Origin: Hyaloraphidium curvatum | Lineage: Eukaryota > Monoblepharomycota > Hyaloraphidiomycetes > Hyaloraphidiales > Hyaloraphidiaceae | Assembly (NCBI GenBank): GCA_025558095.1 | Contig: JAIVFI010000046.1 | Location: 120,332-184,331 of the forward strand | DNA length: 64,000 nt | Reading direction: 5' to 3' | In this document: positions 46,290-55,608 of the stretch, one piece after another | Numbering within the stretch: position 1 is the first letter of the stretch | Layout: every line of letters starts with the position of its first letter | The notes under the pieces: generated by a model | What the model saw: only the letters and a program-made list of their open reading frames with translations | What the model was told of the DNA's origin: nothing | Databases searched by the model: none | Made by a program: the position numbers and the translations under genes

Positions 46290-47999
46290 CTTTTCGCCAC
46301 CACAACCTCCACCTCTCAACCCACTGTCCGGCGCTCGATCGGGGACCATGCTCGCCGTGCTGCCACCATGGTTTTGCAGTCTACCGCTTCCCGACCCATT
46401 CCGCCTATCTACCGCCGGGCGCTCGGCGTCCCGCGCGCTGTCTCACATACCACGCCGCAGAGCCGCAGATCCTGGCGGCGGCCCGTATCCCGATGCAGGT
46501 TTCTGCCTGAGGGCCGCCGCCCCGGCCGGGTGCAGTCTCGGGCCACCGCAGCGTTCCGCGCCCGAGCCGACCGTGGTGATCTCCGAGGTCACCCCCCTCG
46601 CGGCCCAAATCACAGCTCGCAGCAGCGCATCCGCGTTCATATCCAATATCCCGACGCCGCTTCGTGTCCGAATTACTAGGACGGGTCCGATGGGCCGCTA
46701 CATACGGTGCTTTTCTGGGCGGTTTGGGCCCCCGCGACTCAGCATGTCGCGGCACGTCGCACGGCCCCATCCACGCCACGCACCCGAGCTCCCGGCTTAA
46801 TATCCCGAAGATCCACCACCGTCCAGCTCGCAGAGCACGCGGTTGGCCCGCAGCGGCCTCTTACCGGGGCCCCACCAACCCCGCCCCGGAGCGGCGATTT
46901 TTGTTTTTGATTACCTGGAGATTGAAAAATCTATTAAGGAAAATAATGTTTACTGACCCGAATCCGGAGCCCGTTTCCACGCCATTTTGCGCGATTCTGG
47001 CCCATTCCCGGCTCTCCTGGCGCGTCTCGAGACCTCCCGATTGCCTCCCTGGTGCTCGATGTGGAGTTCTGCGGCGCCGGGGTCCAGGACATGGTGCTCT
47101 TCCCGGACCTTGCGCGGAGTCGCCTCGCGGGCTGCAGTCCTCCTGGAAACACGGTTATCCGATGATTTTATCTTTTCTATGGAGCAGTTGGCCAGTGGAA
47201 CCTGAAGCAACGCGTTTCCGGACTCTTGGGGCACGGAAAACCATGCACATCTCCTCGCTGTGACGCGACGCGGGTGCCTTCGAGCACCGCGCGCCGAGAG
47301 CACTTTTGGGAACCTTTAGAAACCTCAGGCACGGGCGGAATGGGCCGCGTCGCTCGTGTGCTGCAGGATTTGGCCGGCTCGAAGTTTGTCGCGCTCGCCC
47401 TTCGAATGTGCTCATTTCTTGGCTCTTCGCTCCGTCGGATGTTCGTTGGAGGGAGCTCTTTCAGCGTGTCACGTGGATCTTATGGCGGGCTCGCTGCTCA
47501 CGGACTGTCGACGCTCGAGACGCGCTGCGCGCCGTTGGCGCGATCTACCTGTTGGAATCAAGCGCAACGGGTTCTTTGGTGAAGAGAGCAAATGTCGTTT
47601 TTGATTGCTCTTGTTTGGGGCTTCACGCGAGGGACGCTTGGTCCCCTGGTCACCTCAGATGTGGCCAACTTTTCGCCCACACTTCAGAACCCCTCCCGAG
47701 AAGCGGCTGGTTGCCGAAGATGGAGAACACAACATGCAGGATTGCCGATGCCATGTCGACGAGCAGCTCCGTGGCCGATGGTGACCTGTCTGCCTCCTCG
47801 TGTACGTTTCCGGCAAGACCATCTAGATTTCGCGGGCTTGGCATCAAAGACGGAATCAAATGAATGGAAATGACTGCTTGAAACACAGATAAGGATGCAG
47901 TAATGTCGAGGAAAGGATTACAAGAGGATATGGTCTATCTTGGCATCTGCCCCGTCCTCCGCGCCTCCCCACCCCTGGCACAGATCGTGAACGCCCCGT
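46290..47999. other. Gene-poor stretch at the left of the mobile island
   Basis: About 1.7 kb with only short ORFs and no domain I recognise. Parts (46900-46960, 47150-47180) are visibly A/T-rich compared with neighbouring genes. It could be decayed sequence or non-coding regulatory DNA. Confidence 0.45.
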
Positions 48000-49053
48000 T
48001 CACGTTTCCAGTCTTGCCATTTGCTCCGCAACCGCCGCTTCGAAGCTACCGCCGTCCCTGGAGGAGAAGAACTTGATCGACTTGATCGTCGCCTTGACCA
48101 AGTTCCCGTTGGTTCTCAGCTTTCCTGGGTTCCGATGATTGACGTTCACGGAGTGCTTGGAAAGCAGATCCGCGTACTCCCGCGGCTCCCGTTTCTGGCC
48201 TTTCCGAAGAGCTGACAGGTGGAAGGCGGCAAGCAAGAGGAACTGCTCTCTCTCAGCCGGATGGTCCACGATATTCAACGGTGAAGCTTTCCCGTTCGAA
48301 CGGGCGCGTCCGACGAGGTCACTGGAGCTGAACGAAAGGCGTCGCGTGCCGTCAGGCATGGTCGCCTCGAACTGCGTCCCGAACGGGGAGTGGAGCGAGA
48401 CACCGATGCCGCGGCGCACTCGCTGAGCAACGGATGTCTTGGTCCGTTCGCGAACCTAAAATGAACAATGATTAGAGGTGCTACGCCTTCAAAAGACGGG
48501 GAAAGCTCGCCTGTTCGCGCTCAAACTGTGCCATGAGCGAGTTCATTGCGAGTGACAGCCACGAAGTAGCCGACGGCGCCGAGCCGCTCCAGAAGAAGGT
48601 CAGCTCGGGCTGGTTGACGCAAACGAAGGATTTTCGGGCCTGGGTGAGCTCCTGAATGTAGCTGTGGGTCGCAACCATGTCGCGAGACAACCGGTCCAGC
48701 CGGACGACGACCAGGCCGGCGTAGTCGTTCGAGGCGAGCAAGGAGACGAATGCAGCATGCAATTCCTTCCGTTCGAACGCCCCAGGCCCCTTGGGCAGTG
48801 CCCCGCTGGCCAGTTCTTCGTGCACCGCGACGACAATGTCCCCGCGCGCGGTTGCCCAGTCCCGGATGATCCCGATCTGATCCACGAGCGACAGATTGTC
48901 GCTCCCGTCGTCCAGCGACTTTCTGACGTAGGCAATCCAGCGCAGGCCTCGCCCAGATCCGAGCTGGGCCGCCGAGGCATAGGTTCCGAACTTTCCAACG
49001 AGCGAAACGAGGTGGGACACGTCCAGCGCGCTGGAAGCATGCTGGGGCTCCAT
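48000..49053 (-). CDS. Serine recombinase (resolvase/invertase family) with one intron
   Basis: Site-specific recombinase fold. From ATG 49053: catalytic block IAYVRKS (Tyr42, Arg44, nucleophile Ser46) with Gln59 in SLVDQ; Arg95 in FERKELHAA; VVRLDRLSRD (Asp120, Arg121, Arg124). All residues of the serine-recombinase active site are present. A 55-nt intron (48456-48510; donor gc, acceptor tttag, branch ctaat) lies exactly in the E-helix: MNSLMAQFEREQ joins VRERTKTSVAQRVRRG, matching the family pattern. The C-terminal part (PAEREQFLLLAAFHLSALRK, then EYADLLSKHSVNVN and a Lys-rich end) resembles the recombinase helix-turn-helix DNA-binding segment. About 330 residues. No MerR-type N-terminal domain as in IS607-like TnpA. 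Such genes are rare in fungi; an intron shows adaptation to a eukaryotic host. Confidence 0.82.
48456..48510 (-). other. GC-AG intron in the serine recombinase
   Basis: Intron of 55 nt, from the gcgagc donor to tttag, with a ctaat branch-like motif. Removing it restores the recombinase E-helix. Without removal the frame ends at a stop codon 6 codons after the donor. Confidence 0.7.
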
Positions 49054-50872
49054 CTCCGCCCAGAAGGACAATCAGCGGCCCGCAATGAAGCAGGAGAGGG
49101 CCAAATGCAAGCTCGATCGGGATGAGGAGGCGGTGGCGGGTCGGTTTCGGTCCCTGAAGCGCGACAGACGTTCCGCCGAGAGACAGGGGTACCAGAGCGT
49201 CACACACACGAACTGAGCCCGCAACCGGCTTGAACATGAGCGCGAGCGACCATAGACGGGCCGGAAAGTGAGGAGGAAGGGGTTCAAAGACGTCAGACAA
49301 GGGTGTCGAAAAGGAGCTTCGCGGCACCTACATCGCGAGGCCCCCAAGCACTGTACAGCCGTTGGCTGCCCCAACGGAGGCACCGAGGATCTTTTTCCGG
49401 TCCAGATAGGAGCGAGAATGGGGGAGAACACGGCCGTTGGTCAGGATTCGTGCCACGAAACGGCGGAGCACGAACCGAGGGGGAAGGAATGTTCCGATGC
49501 GCCGCCGTCCAGAGGCAGTAGGAAGCAGACGACAAGGCCGCTGGACGTCCGGCTTGGTGCTCTCTCGTGGCAACCGGTCGGGTCTCCAGCCATCGCTATC
49601 GGAAACCGAGCGGAGTTCGGGGGAGTCTATCCAAGGGCTCCCTTGGATAGACTCTCTGAGACCCGCCGCCGAACCGCGATCTTGGAACTTCACTACACGC
49701 TATGCTAGTGCTCGGTTCTCCTCCCCGAGACCAACTAGGATAGAAGAGATGTTGTACTTCCCTCCCTGGGGAACTCAAGGCCAGTCATTGCTATTCAGGT
49801 CGCAGGACCGCCGAATGTGAGCGAGCGTCCCGAATTCACGTCCCGTCGAGCCTGGTGGGGAAGGGACGATATGGAGGAAACGCCTAAATCCCGACAAGAG
49901 CTAATCACATTTACATGCGTGGTTTGGGAGCGCAAGAAGAGCTCCGCAGGTCTTATTCACTCTGGGCCGGGCTTGACAGCTGCACACTTGAATGGACGTC
50001 CGGCATCTCGTCAATGCCGAGCAGCAAGATGCTCGAGCGTTCTAATGTACCATACATGGTTCAATAAAGTCATTCCGATGGATGATGCTTTCTTCCATCC
50101 TCTACTGGTCAGCGAGCGCTCCCAGAGCTCCATGCACGGCATGCTCAAGTTTGGGACCTCGCGGAGCCCCGCATGAGGACGTGAAGTTGTCCACAGCTAT
50201 GAGGCGTTAGAAATGCATATAAATACGCGATTTGTCGAAAAGCCGCGTCGATTGAATCGCCTGTGCGTGAACGCGGGCGGTCGGCGCGGACCCATTTTGG
50301 CCGATTTTGAGCCGTTCCGGAGCCATCCCGCTCACAAAAACGCAATGCAGCACTGCGAGGCGTGCCGATTCCTCAAGTAGTAGTATGAAAGCGTCGAATT
50401 CGGCCTGCATCTCAATTTAGGTCCGCAGCACCTCGGGGACCCAGACCCCCCCCCTCGTCAGTGGAAATTGACGCCGATGGCGCGCAACCACGCACCAAAC
50501 CCGGTCTGCTCCGCGCAATACGCTGACTCGATGTAAATAAGTGCGCAGAAGCTAGAACGGCTACCGGCCATCGATTTTCGCTTGGTGTAGGTGGTCCAGC
50601 AGGTCAAGACTAGCAGGTCCGACGCCCTCCCCCGATGTAGTGCCACTTTGCGCCGGTGTGTCGAGCTCCTCAATCCTGTCATCAAGCACATGCCTTTCTG
50701 TGCATCGCATTACCTCTCTACCATGGCCGCTGGAGCCGATTCAATCACTTCTATGGCCGCATCCGAGCACATACGATCGCCTTCCGGGTCCGTGTTCACC
50801 AGGACGGTCAATGGGGACTTCAGATGAGTTGCCCTGCTTGAATTCCACAATGATATACATGAAACCGATCTA
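49054..50872. other. Non-coding part of the mobile island
   Basis: About 1.8 kb between the two mobile-element genes. No convincing gene. It contains the 30-bp palindrome (49624-49653) and a C-run (about 50444-50453). Confidence 0.5.
49624..49653. repeat. Perfect 30-bp palindrome with a 2-bp centre
   Basis: Two 14-nt arms, agtctatccaaggg and cccttggatagact, with centre ct. It lies about 570 bp upstream of the recombinase ATG. The size and the 2-bp centre are those of a resolvase/serine-integrase core site; a role as crossover or attachment site is inference. It could also form a transcribed hairpin. Confidence 0.85.
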
Positions 50873-53800
50873 CTACTTCGGGAATTCCGTCACAAGAACC
50901 ACCTTCAACGCCTCGTAGGCCGTCAGACGGGGGCCACGCAGCGTGGCATCCTTGGCATCAAGGAGGTCGAGAAACTCTCCCTCCAGGTAGGCCCAGTCGG
51001 GACCTCCATCTTCCGCGCGGCGCGTGCCGTAAGCGGGGATGGTAATCTTGCGCTGCGTGTCGTCGCTACGGCGAAATCCATCATCGCAAAGGCCCAGCCG
51101 ATGGACATGAGCAGCCCGGGATGTCTCCTCCTTGAGCTGCCCGCAGCGCCGACATAGCTGAGCTTCATCCTTTGGGGCATGCCCTCGCACCTTGGGCTTC
51201 GCGGGTTCCATGGCCGAAACAGCAACTTCCGGCAGGGTCAACGAAGGAGCGACCTGTCGGTCCAACTGACGTTAAACCACCAGCGCGACGGCAGAGAGAA
51301 GCCGGTATGCCGCTCACCGACACAGTCGAAGCACCTTGGACGAGCTTCTGGGCCACATGAGCGAAGGCAGCGAGGAGGGCCTCGGCCCAAGCCTCTTTCG
51401 AGATCTCGGGCGGCAAGTGCAGGGGCCTCGGCACGTGCTCGAGCAAAGCGGGCCCAGCTGCCAATGTGGAAGCATCGGGTAGAGCCAGAGACGATGTTGT
51501 CCCAGGCGCCGGCGGCATGGCCCGCTTCTTAGCCGCCGGAACCGACGTCGAGGCCGGCCGCGGTGCCGCCGGCGAATCTGCCCGTCCCTGAACCGAATCC
51601 TCACGTTTCCGCTTGCCGCTCAAGGCCATTGCACCGCTTGACGGCTGAAAGGCGACGGGCAAGGGCGCCGGCGTCCTGCAAAAGACGAGGGATGAGCCCA
51701 GAAGCCGAGATCCGAAAATGGCGTCCACCCACTCCAATACAGGCTCCACAGGCCGGTTTAGAGCCTGCACGGGCGCGGAAGAGAGAGAAGGAACGACGGG
51801 AACCTCCAGCGTGTCTTCCTCCATAGGAAACGAAAGAGGCTGGCTTGCAGCGGCAGTAGAGGCAGCCTTCGGCGACATTTGGCTCGAAGGCCCGGTTGGA
51901 GACGAAATGACCGGCGAGAACAAGCCTGAGGTGGCTACAACGGCGGACCCGAGCTAATGAACGCAGACATGTTGAGTAGACCATGAATCCACTCCATCGC
52001 AATCATTTACCTGGGCCACAGTGCGCTGAAACTCGGCCTTGATGCCGTAGTTCGGCGCGGCTCTACCACGAGCTTTCGGAGACGGCGACGGCTTGTGCGA
52101 AGGACGACTTTTCGGAGTGAATCCGCGAGGCGAGGCGGGCCGCGCCTTCGGGACAGCCGGATCCTTTTCCCTTTCGGCGACGTGGGCCTGCTGGTCCCGG
52201 ATCGCCTTCCCGGCTTGCCGTGCTTCCGCCGAGGTGACGGCACGAATCTCAAAACACTCGTGATCCTCCAGAAGCGGGTTGCATTGTGCAGGGTGACCAT
52301 TCTGGCGAGCCAAGCGGTTCCGAGCTTCCAGCACCTGGCAAAGAGCCGGATTCCTGCCCAACTGCTGGGCGCAAAAGTCGCCGAATTTGATGCGCAACAC
52401 GGTCAGCATGTAATCGAGATCGAAATGGTCAATCTCCTGCAGGATGGTGTCCTCGAGTTTCGCGTGGCGGCCGAGCCAGTCCTGCAGAAGCCGAAAATAG
52501 CCCTCGAGACGATTGCTTCCCCTAGCAACCATCACTGAGCCGTCTGCCGCGATGTAGAACAAAATCTCTGGATCGTCCAAACACCCCTTTTCCAGGTGCA
52601 CTCGAGCGTTTGCCCAGTTCTTCTCAAACACCTCGACCTTCTTTGGAGGAAGACCGCCGTGGTACCGAAGAGCTTCGTTCTTAGCGGCGTCGAAGGCCTT
52701 GATGGCTTCCTCGCGTGGCAGCATCGGCTGCGGCGTCTTCTCCCGCTGGGGAGCTCAACTCCCGGGAACTGAATGGAACTCCAAACGATGCCGATGATCT
52801 TGTCCTTGACAAAATCCGTGACCCCGACGTCCTCGCAAATCCGTTGCACCCAGTGGAAATGGTCGAGACGTACGACCTCGAGATCGCCAAACACAGCCTT
52901 CACGAGTGGGGCTAAAGAGCCCGGCGAGCCACAGCACCGGTCCACTTGGAGCACGATGACCGAGTCCCCGGCTCCTCAAAGGCGCCGACAGATTTCCCCG
53001 AATCAAGCTTCTTTCCGTCGATTCCACGGCCCGCAGCTTTCTGAGCCCGCAAAGAGTTACGAAGAACCTCTAGGCCGTGCTTGGCTGCGTCGTCACCCTT
53101 GTTCCGGGCCATGTACTGCGAACGTCGTCAGAAGCTCCGCTGCATGGGCAGCGCGGAGCGGCTCACCGCGCCAAGAGGAGTACCAGTCACGGTGATGTAC
53201 TTGATCAGCTGAGGTTTGCTGCTCATGGACTCGGCCGCCACGCGGCCGCCGTTCACCTTTGCAGCCGCATCCTTCTCGGCATCCGCGGCAGCACCGCCGT
53301 CAGCATGCTTGCTGGAGTTGAGGGCCTTGTGGCCCCCATTCTCCTCGTCGTGCACGTAAGCTTGGTGCAGTGCGGTCTTTTCCAGTCCGTCCTGCGCAAT
53401 GTTCCGGCCTGCGCGGCGGAGATGAGCCAATTAGCGAAACCAAATCCGTTCCGCCAGAACCCACAGTCAGCCTGGTACTGATATGAGTGGAAAAGATGGT
53501 CGCCGTATCGGTTCCAAACTGCGTCGTGTAGACGAGTCACAAAAGCAGCGTCGATCACATCCCCGGCCATTCTGACGCCAAGTCAACACACAGGCGAAGG
53601 CTCAGCCCGAATCGCGGCCCAACTCACGAGAATTCGTCCTCCATTGACTCCTGGATCGACTGCGGCTTCTTCCTCGCTCTGCCGGAAGAGGCCGGCGAAC
53701 GTCGGTACGGTCGTGCCGTCGGAGGGCCCCGCCTGAGAAGGTGCCGAGTCGTTTTCAGCCGAGTCTGATCTCACGACAAAGGAATCTATGCTCGTTTGCT

Positions 53801-54888
53801 TGGATCCCGAAGAGTCTATGGGAACGGAGTCACAGCGTGTCCTCACGATGCCACACAAAAGGTTACCTGAAGAGAAGAATGCGCTGGTCGTCTCCGCATC
53901 CGGCATGGGGCCATGCTTCCCGTGGTGTTGAAGGTGCAGCGCGACGACGTGATGTTCGGCCTCCAGGTCGGCTGGAACCGAGATGTCACGAAAGGGCAAG
54001 AACCAGTTCAGAAAGAGCCGTACCGTTCAGGATCTTGGCCGCCATGCCCGGCCCGCACTCGTTCACCAGGTTGTAGACCTTCGAGAGGAACGACATGTGC
54101 ACGTACGAGTGGCCGACCCGTTCGTAAGGGAACACTGCCGACGAATGATTAGCAAGGTCGACAAGATCGATCAGGGAGCGGTTCCTACCGACGTAGCGCA
54201 GGTCCGCGGGAATTCTGTCGAGCAGGTTGTGGGCACCAATCTGGAAGGTGCACTTCCCCGCCTTGGCTTCCCCAAAGTTCTCGCAAACGTATCGCCGGGG
54301 GCAAAGAAGTTCCAACTCTCCATGGGGCCCACGCATGAGGAAGAGATCTTGAACCCAAGCACTGGGCTTCAGCTTCAATCCGCACGTCGGACAAATGAGC
54401 CGCGCCAAGTCCGGGTAGCCCTCCCAGGGAGAAAGGATGAAGGTCGGCCGAAGCGTCACGAGAGAATCCATTTCCGGGGTTCCCGGCCCGTTGAGGACCT
54501 TGAAAATCGGATCCCCTCCATCCCGGAGGACGAAGCGCTCCGGATGACGTCGTAGATCGAAGGGAAAAGGCTGGAGACCATGGGTGAACGGGGTAACCTT
54601 CTTCCCCGGCAACCTCCTCTTTTGGGCGGCCGAGAACTCGAGCTGGAAGGCCGTTCCGTGCTGAGGACGCCCTTCTGGAGGTGCCTCGCCCGCCGAAGCT
54701 TGTGGCTGCTGTCCGGCGGGCTCCCCTCCGCTTTCCGGCTGCCCGGCCGGCGGCGCTGCGGTCTTTGGCGGGCGACCGCGCTTCTTCGTCTGCTTTGGTG
54801 CGTCCGAAGCCTTCATCGCGGGGACCTTAGCCTTCTTCACGCCGCCAGAGACCTTCTTCGCGCCGCCCGTGTTCCGGTTCCGACCCAT
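50873..54888 (-). pseudogene. DUF6729/DDE-type transposase remnant, frames broken
   Basis: Transposase-like coding in several frames. From ATG 54888: Lys/Pro-rich start (RGRPPK AT-hook-like), then a zinc-binding DUF6729-like domain (LARLICPTCGLKLKPSAWV, LLCPRRYVCENFGEAKAGKC). After a frame change near 53990 come fragments (FRDISVPADLEAEHHVVALH; GDHLFHSYQYQADCGFW), then VLQVDRCCGSPGSLAPL and VVRLDHFHWVQRICED (two probable Asp-containing catalytic blocks), and at 52.7-51.95 kb VMVARGSNRLEGYFRLLQDW, the Glu-containing RGTNxxE-like block. The C-terminal pieces (51.9-50.9 kb) hold a Cys pair cluster (CRRCGQLKEET). The first catalytic Asp and full continuity are not found. Match to the DUF6729-plus-DDE family is from motif memory only. 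Confidence 0.55.
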
Positions 54889-55608
54889 GCCTCCGCTGGC
54901 CCGAGAAGTCGCGTCGAGACGCGACGGTTCGGATCAGTTGGCCTCGTCTTCGGCGCCAGAGTCCTTCCTAGAGCTCAGACTGCCCTGCTTGCAGTCATTC
55001 CCGTCCAGAATGTCCCCAGGGGATGCTTCAACAGAGGCCTCGTCTCCTCCCGGGGAGAGGAAGCTATAAACCGTCGCGACACGCGGGAAGGCGAGGCTCC
55101 TCGCGACAGTAGCGTTGATTCGAGGGCAGAGAAGGCTACGCCGACGCGCGTCTGGGACGGGGCCGGCGCGCAGGTGGCCTCTCAGGGGGTTTGGCCCGGT
55201 GGGGGAGGGTTGGGGAGGGTTGAAAGAGGGTTGAAGAGGGTTGAAGGAGGGTTGAACCGGGTTGAAGGGTTTGGTCTAGTAAACAGATCTATATCACGCC
55301 GCCCACGCCTATCAAAGCCTGTCATCTCCTCGGGCATCCCCCGCCCAAACTACCGGCGCCTGCGGCACGGGTTAGTTTCCTCCCGCCTTTTTGCGACAGG
55401 CGCCACCACTTCCCGCGGCGGCCGTTGTTGCCGGAAGGGCACACGGCCGGGAGGTCGTGACGCCTATCGCGACGCCACTCTGTCCTCCCCACGCTTCAAC
55501 CTCTCACACATATCTGTGCTGCTGCCCAATCAGGTCCCGTGCTGCCGTCGGCCATCCCTACCATCACCGGCTGCTTCGTAACCCGATCCGGGTGAGGACG
55601 CCGCCGCG
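54889..55608. other. Right edge of the mobile island and promoter of the V-ATPase gene
   Basis: About 720 bp with no supported gene. Contains the GGGTTGAA-like tandem repeats (55206-55272), then the V-ATPase subunit a promoter. Confidence 0.5.
55206..55272. repeat. Imperfect GGGTTGAA tandem repeats
   Basis: Six or so copies of gggttga(a/g) with period about 9-12 bp, preceded by gggttgggga. Low-copy minisatellite; telomere-like in look (G-rich strand) but not the fungal TTAGGG unit. Confidence 0.75.

Follow-up and report, generated by a model that had tools for sequence, protein, structure and literature searches.

The window, the whole 64-kb stretch of DNA analysed here, comes from Hyaloraphidium curvatum, a chytrid-related aquatic fungus (chytridiomyceta, Monoblepharomycota), and contains on its minus strand a gene for a serine recombinase (SR). 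Exon 1 (48511–49053) encodes residues 1–181, with most of the catalytic domain; exon 2 (48000–48455, stop codon included) encodes the remainder of the E-helix together with a C-terminal domain, not assigned to any family, which was found here solely in the three members of the SR clade described below. The predicted intron between them (48456–48510, minus strand) is 55 nt long with GC–AG borders, and taking it out produced a single 332-aa frame in which the E-helix is restored, as an earlier note on this DNA had claimed. The NCBI protein P0001 (332 aa, 'Resolvase [Hyaloraphidium curvatum]'), whose source is the copy on the 849,464-nt contig C9, is spliced identically, and a second SR family in the same genome has an intron at the identical alignment position and phase; both results uphold the intron proposed in that note.

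Profile searches, suggested earlier as a check, revealed a match of Pfam Resolvase (PF00239) to residues 40–197 of the SR (E 2.5e-17, 63.8 bits vs. a cut-off of 23.3) and no match of Recombinase (PF07508) in the 332 residues at E values up to 1. All eight catalytic residues that had been named (Y42, R44, S46, Q59, R95, D120, R121 and R124) are present, supporting the proposal of an intact serine recombinase. These residues are invariant in 3/3 members of the SR clade, and all of them except Q59 are at least 90% conserved across 28 aligned rows, which are mostly bacterial-type recombinases. The catalytic domain is preceded by just 39 residues, in which no Pfam family was matched, in agreement with the claim that a MerR-type N-terminus is absent. 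SR profiles matched invertases, the TP901-1 integrase and gamma-delta resolvase in PDB, the best PDB profile matches being DNA invertases, and the catalytic domain matched the PHROG 'DNA invertase' profile with an E value of 8.6e-17. The NCBIfam matches to IS607 (E 0.0042) and XisF (E 1.7e-6) were both far below cut-off, and ISC1926 TnpA (PDB) gave an E value of 0.44 by sequence and 2.9e-6 by a 3-row profile.

The 8.4-kb element and its copies

The SR gene lies within a transposon of 8,408 bp (46893–55300; 5' GGCGATTTTTGTTTTTG ... ATATCACGCC 3') whose borders are common to four assembled copies. The ends of the element read GGCGA[T/C]TTTTGTTTTTG... and ...ATATCACGCC, and the inverted match at the very tips is limited to GGCG/CGCC (4 bp). 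A weak subterminal 8-bp motif, TGTTTACT, is present at 46947–46954 on the plus strand and pairs with an inverted counterpart at 55278–55285 on the minus strand. End-to-end copies were found on four contigs, C46 (the window copy), C34, C4 and C9, with different flanks. An exact 7-bp target-site duplication was observed on both sides of the C4 copy (CCGGACC) and of the C9 copy (GCCCACG), and none was found at the flanks of the C34 and window copies, so that exact duplications accompany 2/3 independent end-to-end insertions. The C34 and C9 copies differ at 203 of 8,406 sites; of the 8,130 sites compared between the C34 and C4 copies, which lie at different loci, 3 carry a substitution. Judged from the assembled copies, this near-identity shows that the element has moved recently, at least once. 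The mobile element suspected in the earlier note is thus confirmed: its ends are defined, and it is present end to end on four contigs, with target duplications at two of these copies. The note's term 'fungal island' is not apt, the unit being a transposon.

All four copies are colinear on alignment, with no inverted isomer; the C4 copy lacks 277 bp (window 49767–50043) and has 29 extra bp at the palindrome described below. The SR frame is open in 4/4 of these copies. In a comparison of C34 with C9, the SR coding sequence differs at 7/999 sites (5 synonymous, 2 not) and the neighbouring intergenic stretch at 68/1,819, the SR being the least diverged part of the element. Since the SR is less diverged than its surroundings and the changes are mostly synonymous, it looks to be under selection. 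Eight other open reading frames (ORFs) of the element were scanned and none matched a Pfam family at E<=0.1, so that two genes are recognised in the element. In addition, no TnpB/Fanzor-like Pfam match was obtained in the element ORFs scanned, which is consistent with the stated lack of a TnpB/Fanzor partner.

Two further copies are truncated: C39 has 351 bp of the left end and C37 has 2.5 kb of the right end, and both abut TTAGG-type repeats at contig ends. The repeats are fused directly to the element (C37:531456–531647 and C39:485390–485554), indicating a nuclear, eukaryotic location of the element, and this arrangement suggests that telomeres were added to two chromosome ends broken within the element. 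A common target duplication joining the two fragments was considered and rejected (CAGCTCG vs. CCATAGG, no match). Contigs C2 and C4 terminate in repeats of this type as well. The apparent telomere repeat is (TTAGG)n; six units of it match exactly at 687 overlapping positions, each on the plus strand, and among the matches listed (C1–C5), C2 and C4, whose lengths are known, carry the repeat at their right ends. TTAGG is the arthropod-type telomere unit, and TTAGGG is usual in fungi.

The window copy combines sequences of two loci. On the left it is flanked by sequence with 99.95% identity to the C34 flank, and on the right by sequence with 99.9% identity to the C9 flank; at sites where these two copies differ, it agrees with C34 up to 53799 and with C9 from 53913, which places the switch at 53800–53912, and 10 alignment columns fit neither. 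We regard this copy as a hybrid produced by an assembly join near the C46 end or by homologous exchange, probably the former. An exchange mediated by the palindrome was rejected as its origin, because the crossover lies 4 kb from that dyad, and the hybrid is therefore not evidence for recombinase action. This junction may be a misassembly, which would suit an explanation of the finding by assembly artefact or bacterial contamination. However, we consider that explanation extremely improbable, and it is refuted for the element as a whole by the three other end-to-end copies, the telomere-type repeats on the two fragments, the introns in both the SR gene and the large gene, and an exocyst Sec15 gene in the flank, 6 kb away. 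The bacterial contamination against which the earlier note had cautioned is thus ruled out.

The large gene and a second recombinase family

The second gene of the element is a multi-exon, transposase-like gene at 50873–54888 on the minus strand, corresponding to the NCBI 'hypothetical protein' P0003 (1,171 aa, from C9). Its frame is broken in the window copy at about 52.7–53.0 kb, where C34, C4 and C9 have one open frame of 391 codons. Searches of Pfam, NCBIfam, PHROGs and PDB sequences with P0003 gave no match except a sub-threshold zinc-ribbon (E 0.18 and 0.23); no Pfam or NCBIfam transposase family, including those of Tn3 type, matched it. A search for KDZ (PF18758) gave no match at E<=10, with control genomes equally silent, and hmmscan gave no such match either; the idea of a KDZ identity was dropped. 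A protein search, in which only candidates sharing most words were scored, returned P0003 itself alone among 8,000 scored candidates. By eye, we recognised a zinc-like CxxC motif at 166, VDRCC (D543), LDHFHW (a DxxH motif, DHFH at 569–572), SNRLEG (E689) and, close to the C terminus, another CxxC cluster at 1079. A first catalytic D is not obvious in the NCBI model. Excising a 48-nt in-frame GT–AG stretch (53256–53209) that is kept in this model creates KDAAAKLIKYITVTG, with a candidate D450 that is convincing only when this candidate intron is removed.

According to the accessible part of PMC3706591, hAT, P, MuDR, Kolobok and Dada transposases have a DxxH or CxxH motif following the second D. 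Duplications of 7 bp are reported for some rust-fungus hAT elements (PMC12730594, in the part available), so that the duplication length does not fix the superfamily. From its motifs, we call P0003 a DDE-type, transposase-like protein outside any named superfamily.

A search of the H. curvatum genome with PF00239 gave 9 matches among 9 scored candidates, of which 4 are copies of the window gene and 5 belong to the second family. The SR of this family on C22 is open, with 334 aa and a 74-nt intron, and is 35% identical to the window SR. When the two proteins were aligned, the intron junctions (FEREQ|VRERT vs. HTERSS|IAART) fell at the same position and in the same phase, which suggests that the intron is most likely older than the split of the two SR families. 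On C22 and C2, the SR gene is located downstream of an ORF with a GCR1_C domain (PF12550; E 8.2e-10 and 8.2e-8, respectively). GCR1_C is a C-terminal domain typical of fungal Cryptons; no Pfam match to a tyrosine-recombinase core was obtained in this ORF. At C9:336733–341191, SR halves alone form a head-to-head palindromic pair with their right ends outward. A DNA search with the SR half of the second family found 8 places, several of them partial.

In a 61-row tree, the two families and the metagenome protein P0002, whose predicted frame is continuous, formed a single SR clade with support of 100/99, to be read with long-branch warnings. The SR protein retrieved two matches at E<=1e-3 among 8,000 scored candidates (P0001 and P0002), and a 3-row SR profile retrieved 60 at E<=0.01 among 7,999. 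Besides P0001 and P0002, all of these profile matches carry PF00239 (58/58) and most also carry PF07508 (53/58). These searches scored only the candidates that shared most words, and wider relatives may exist. Pattern searches of viral contigs gave 68 stretches for the SR profile, 2 for P0003 and 29 for P0002, and those of genome contigs gave 63, none of which was confirmed in either set; phage records gave no match. Four plasmid records matched over 49–52% of the query, in the catalytic domain.

These data bear on the question of whether the SR is a passenger without function that a transposon picked up by chance. In the second family, the three other copies whose SR start was read (two in the C9 pair and one on C2) are broken and four more places are partial, as would be expected of a passenger. 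However, the SR clade occurs in two families and in a metagenome protein, the intron is conserved in both families, and in the first family the SR is open in every copy, with the low, mostly synonymous divergence between C34 and C9 noted above, which speaks against a dead passenger. We therefore consider this explanation quite unlikely.

The palindrome and the role of the recombinase

A palindrome of two 15-bp arms with a central CT (GAGTCTATCCAAGGG-CT-CCCTTGGATAGACTC) is located at 49623–49654 in the region that separates the two genes, 570 bp upstream of the SR start codon, and is a candidate res-like site. Its arms are perfect in the window, C34 and C4 copies and match at 14/15 positions in C9. 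In the 64-kb window, it is the sole perfect 15-bp dyad with a centre of 0–4 nt; 30 dinucleotide shuffles of the window yielded no perfect dyad and 3 with at least 14/15 matches. A search of the 32-Mb genome for the exact 14-bp half-site gave 10 matches, every one within the four element copies, and a reversed control pattern gave none. The C4 copy contains two further half-sites in direct orientation, an arrangement known from Sin site II, a resolvase accessory site, in the accessible part of PMC9943657. The same source describes resolvase cuts as leaving 2-nt overhangs; the even length and 2-bp centre of the palindrome thus fit the geometry of a serine recombinase crossover site. The palindrome also folds strongly as a single strand (z -4.8), and it could be a hairpin rather than a recombination site. 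In C9, a perfect 15+CT+15 dyad of GATCTC repeats is present at 536914–536945, 1.04 kb left of the element, and is probably a product of chance in low-complexity sequence.

The res of Tn3 consists of three dimer-binding sites. We considered a three-subsite res of this kind and rejected it after a degenerate half-site scan of the element, which revealed, besides the dyad, two 11/15 matches lying 4–5 kb off. No inverted pair of dyads was found within any one element copy. The second SR family has a dyad of its own, whose right arm has 6 exact matches in the genome, all in that family; 6/7 places covering this dyad are exact, the exception being C2:548609–549539. Its centre is of odd length and fits a 2-bp crossover poorly. 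At C2:641862–641904 and on C21 near 699297, the sequence past the dyad is shared, and it differs from that of C22, C14 and C9 about 10 nt on.

By analogy with Tn3 transposons, we propose that the SR has an accessory role as a resolvase at the palindrome and that the DDE-type protein inserts the element, a reading to which we give about an even chance. The large protein (50873–54888) would make the insertion, duplicating 7 bp of the target. The SR would serve as an accessory site-specific recombinase, with the element's own palindrome as its likeliest substrate. Transposition or repair could place two palindromes on one molecule, in a cointegrate, a tandem dimer or a circular dimer; an SR tetramer would then synapse them, and cutting at the central CT with 2-nt overhangs, rotation and rejoining would yield single copies. 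In Tn3, a resolvase acting at a res-type site turns a cointegrate into two circles, according to the accessible part of PMC9943657. Three points of this scheme are inferences: the large protein as transposase, the palindrome as the site bound by the SR, and resolution, as opposed to inversion or some other reaction, as the outcome in the organism. Because there is one palindrome per copy, the SR would need two copies, either linked on one molecule or on separate molecules, and this two-copy requirement, which is the situation of a resolvase, favours the resolution of dimers or cointegrates. Several observations count against the resolvase reading: the dyad is single, its arms match at 14/15 positions in C9, shuffled sequence also gave dyads of 14/15 or better, another perfect dyad is present on C9, the palindrome could be a hairpin, the dyad of the second family has an odd centre, the one exchange seen between copies (the hybrid) does not cross over at the dyad, the C34 copy has no target duplication, and the large protein has no database match above threshold and a first catalytic D that depends on the candidate intron.

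Alternatively, the SR itself might be the mobility enzyme, an integrase or transposase as in IS607 or serine integrases, with the large gene as a passenger. The weak matches to IS607-type catalytic domains (IS607 and XisF in NCBIfam, both far below cut-off, and ISC1926 TnpA) point in this direction, as does the finding that the closest proteins outside the SR clade are large serine recombinases. However, the exact 7-bp duplications at C4 and C9 suggest insertion by the DDE-type protein and not by the SR, and IS607-type transposases make no duplications according to the accessible part of PMC3627910. In addition, the palindrome lies inside the element and does not resemble its ends, the residues preceding the catalytic domain are few, and the D, DxxH and E motifs of the large protein recall a DDE transposase. 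We judge a mobility role to be very unlikely. The SR lineage is also common to elements with apparently different insertion machinery, which makes an accessory role more likely. Of the 'mobility or resolution enzyme' of the earlier note, resolution is thus favoured and mobility less so, given the target duplications and a separate transposase-like protein.

The accessory task might also be another one, such as an invertase switch, a helper in copy-number control or excision, or a host-site factor, with the palindrome serving as a hairpin or regulator. The single dyad per copy, its strong single-strand fold, the PHROG and PDB profile matches to DNA invertases and the head-to-head SR pair of the second family (C9:336.7–341.2 kb) would suit such a task. 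An inverted pair of dyads is lacking in every copy, however, the four copies are colinear, and the exact half-site is absent from the rest of the genome. This explanation appears rather unlikely to us, and resolution at the palindrome is the reading that we retain.

In a broader form, which we regard as possible but doubtful, the element would represent the Tn3 design in a eukaryote: a DDE transposon that replicates and has its own intron-bearing resolvase and a res site for undoing cointegrates. The same resolvase lineage would also act for Crypton-like (tyrosine-recombinase) elements of that nucleus. Cut-and-paste models have no cointegrate or dimer stage. If the broader reading is true, the pathway of some eukaryotic DNA transposons would include cointegrates or dimers; and if the SR resolves them, a step that has so far been assigned to bacteria also belongs to eukaryotic DNA transposition, and the SR would be a compact recombinase of 332 residues, with a defined candidate site of 32 bp, that evolved to work in the nucleus of a eukaryote.

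Comparison with known systems

To our knowledge, serine recombinases in eukaryotic mobile elements are mainly IS607-like and do the inserting. In the present element, an SR is paired with a separate transposase-like protein and an element-specific palindrome. The element is a eukaryotic DNA transposon with a Tn3-like gene set, to which a Tn3-like function is ascribed by inference. Like members of the Tn3 family (gamma-delta and Tn3), it combines a DDE-type transposase-like protein with a serine recombinase that has a resolvase active site, and it has a dyad between the genes, upstream of the recombinase, and a short target duplication. Tn3 makes a 5-bp duplication and has terminal inverted repeats of about 38 bp and three res subsites, whereas the present element has a 7-bp duplication, a 4-bp terminal match and a single dyad, is eukaryotic with introns, and encodes a large protein without a match to the Tn3 transposase model.

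Large serine recombinases and serine integrases (PF00239 + PF07508) provide the nearest catalytic domains outside the SR clade, with a best E value of 1.8e-9 and 24–35% identity among the best ten. These proteins are longer than about 450 aa, whereas the SR has 332 aa and no PF07508. The IS607-type and the eukaryotic or viral Fanzor2 elements share with the present element the occurrence of a serine recombinase in a eukaryotic mobile element. They differ in that the SR has no room for a MerR-type domain in its 39 N-terminal residues, and in the 7-bp duplications and the transposase-like second gene found here. The eukaryotic serine-recombinase elements described in the accessible part of PMC3627910 are IS607-like, paired with Fanzor2, and have neither terminal inverted repeats nor duplications.

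The Dada superfamily resembles the element in a DDE transposase with DxxH after the second D, a feature that is tentative in the large protein, in zinc-finger-like cysteines towards both ends of the protein, in many introns, in a length range (4.7–11 kb) that includes that of the element, and in short inverted repeats that are subterminal rather than terminal; the cysteine spacing of the large protein is different. The accessible part of the Dada paper (PMC3706591) mentions neither serine recombinase nor resolvase. An assignment to Dada through a small-RNA-gene target was rejected, as no tRNA and no Rfam match at the gathering score was found in six 10-kb stretches around the C34, C4 and C9 copies.

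Among the literature matches listed, which came largely from non-subscription sources, we recognised no eukaryotic DDE transposon with a resolvase and no Crypton with a serine recombinase, and those on H. curvatum and its genome concerned mostly mitochondrial genomes. The word 'undescribed' in the earlier note thus holds for the collections and literature searched alone. The elements of the second SR family resemble Cryptons in that a GCR1_C ORF adjoins the SR gene, and differ from them in that a tyrosine-recombinase core is without Pfam support. A further parallel is offered by Fanzor1, a bacterial-derived gene that has spread over unrelated eukaryotic transposons, as described in the accessible parts of PMC10711439 and PMC3627910. 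In the present case, the gene common to different elements is that of a serine recombinase.
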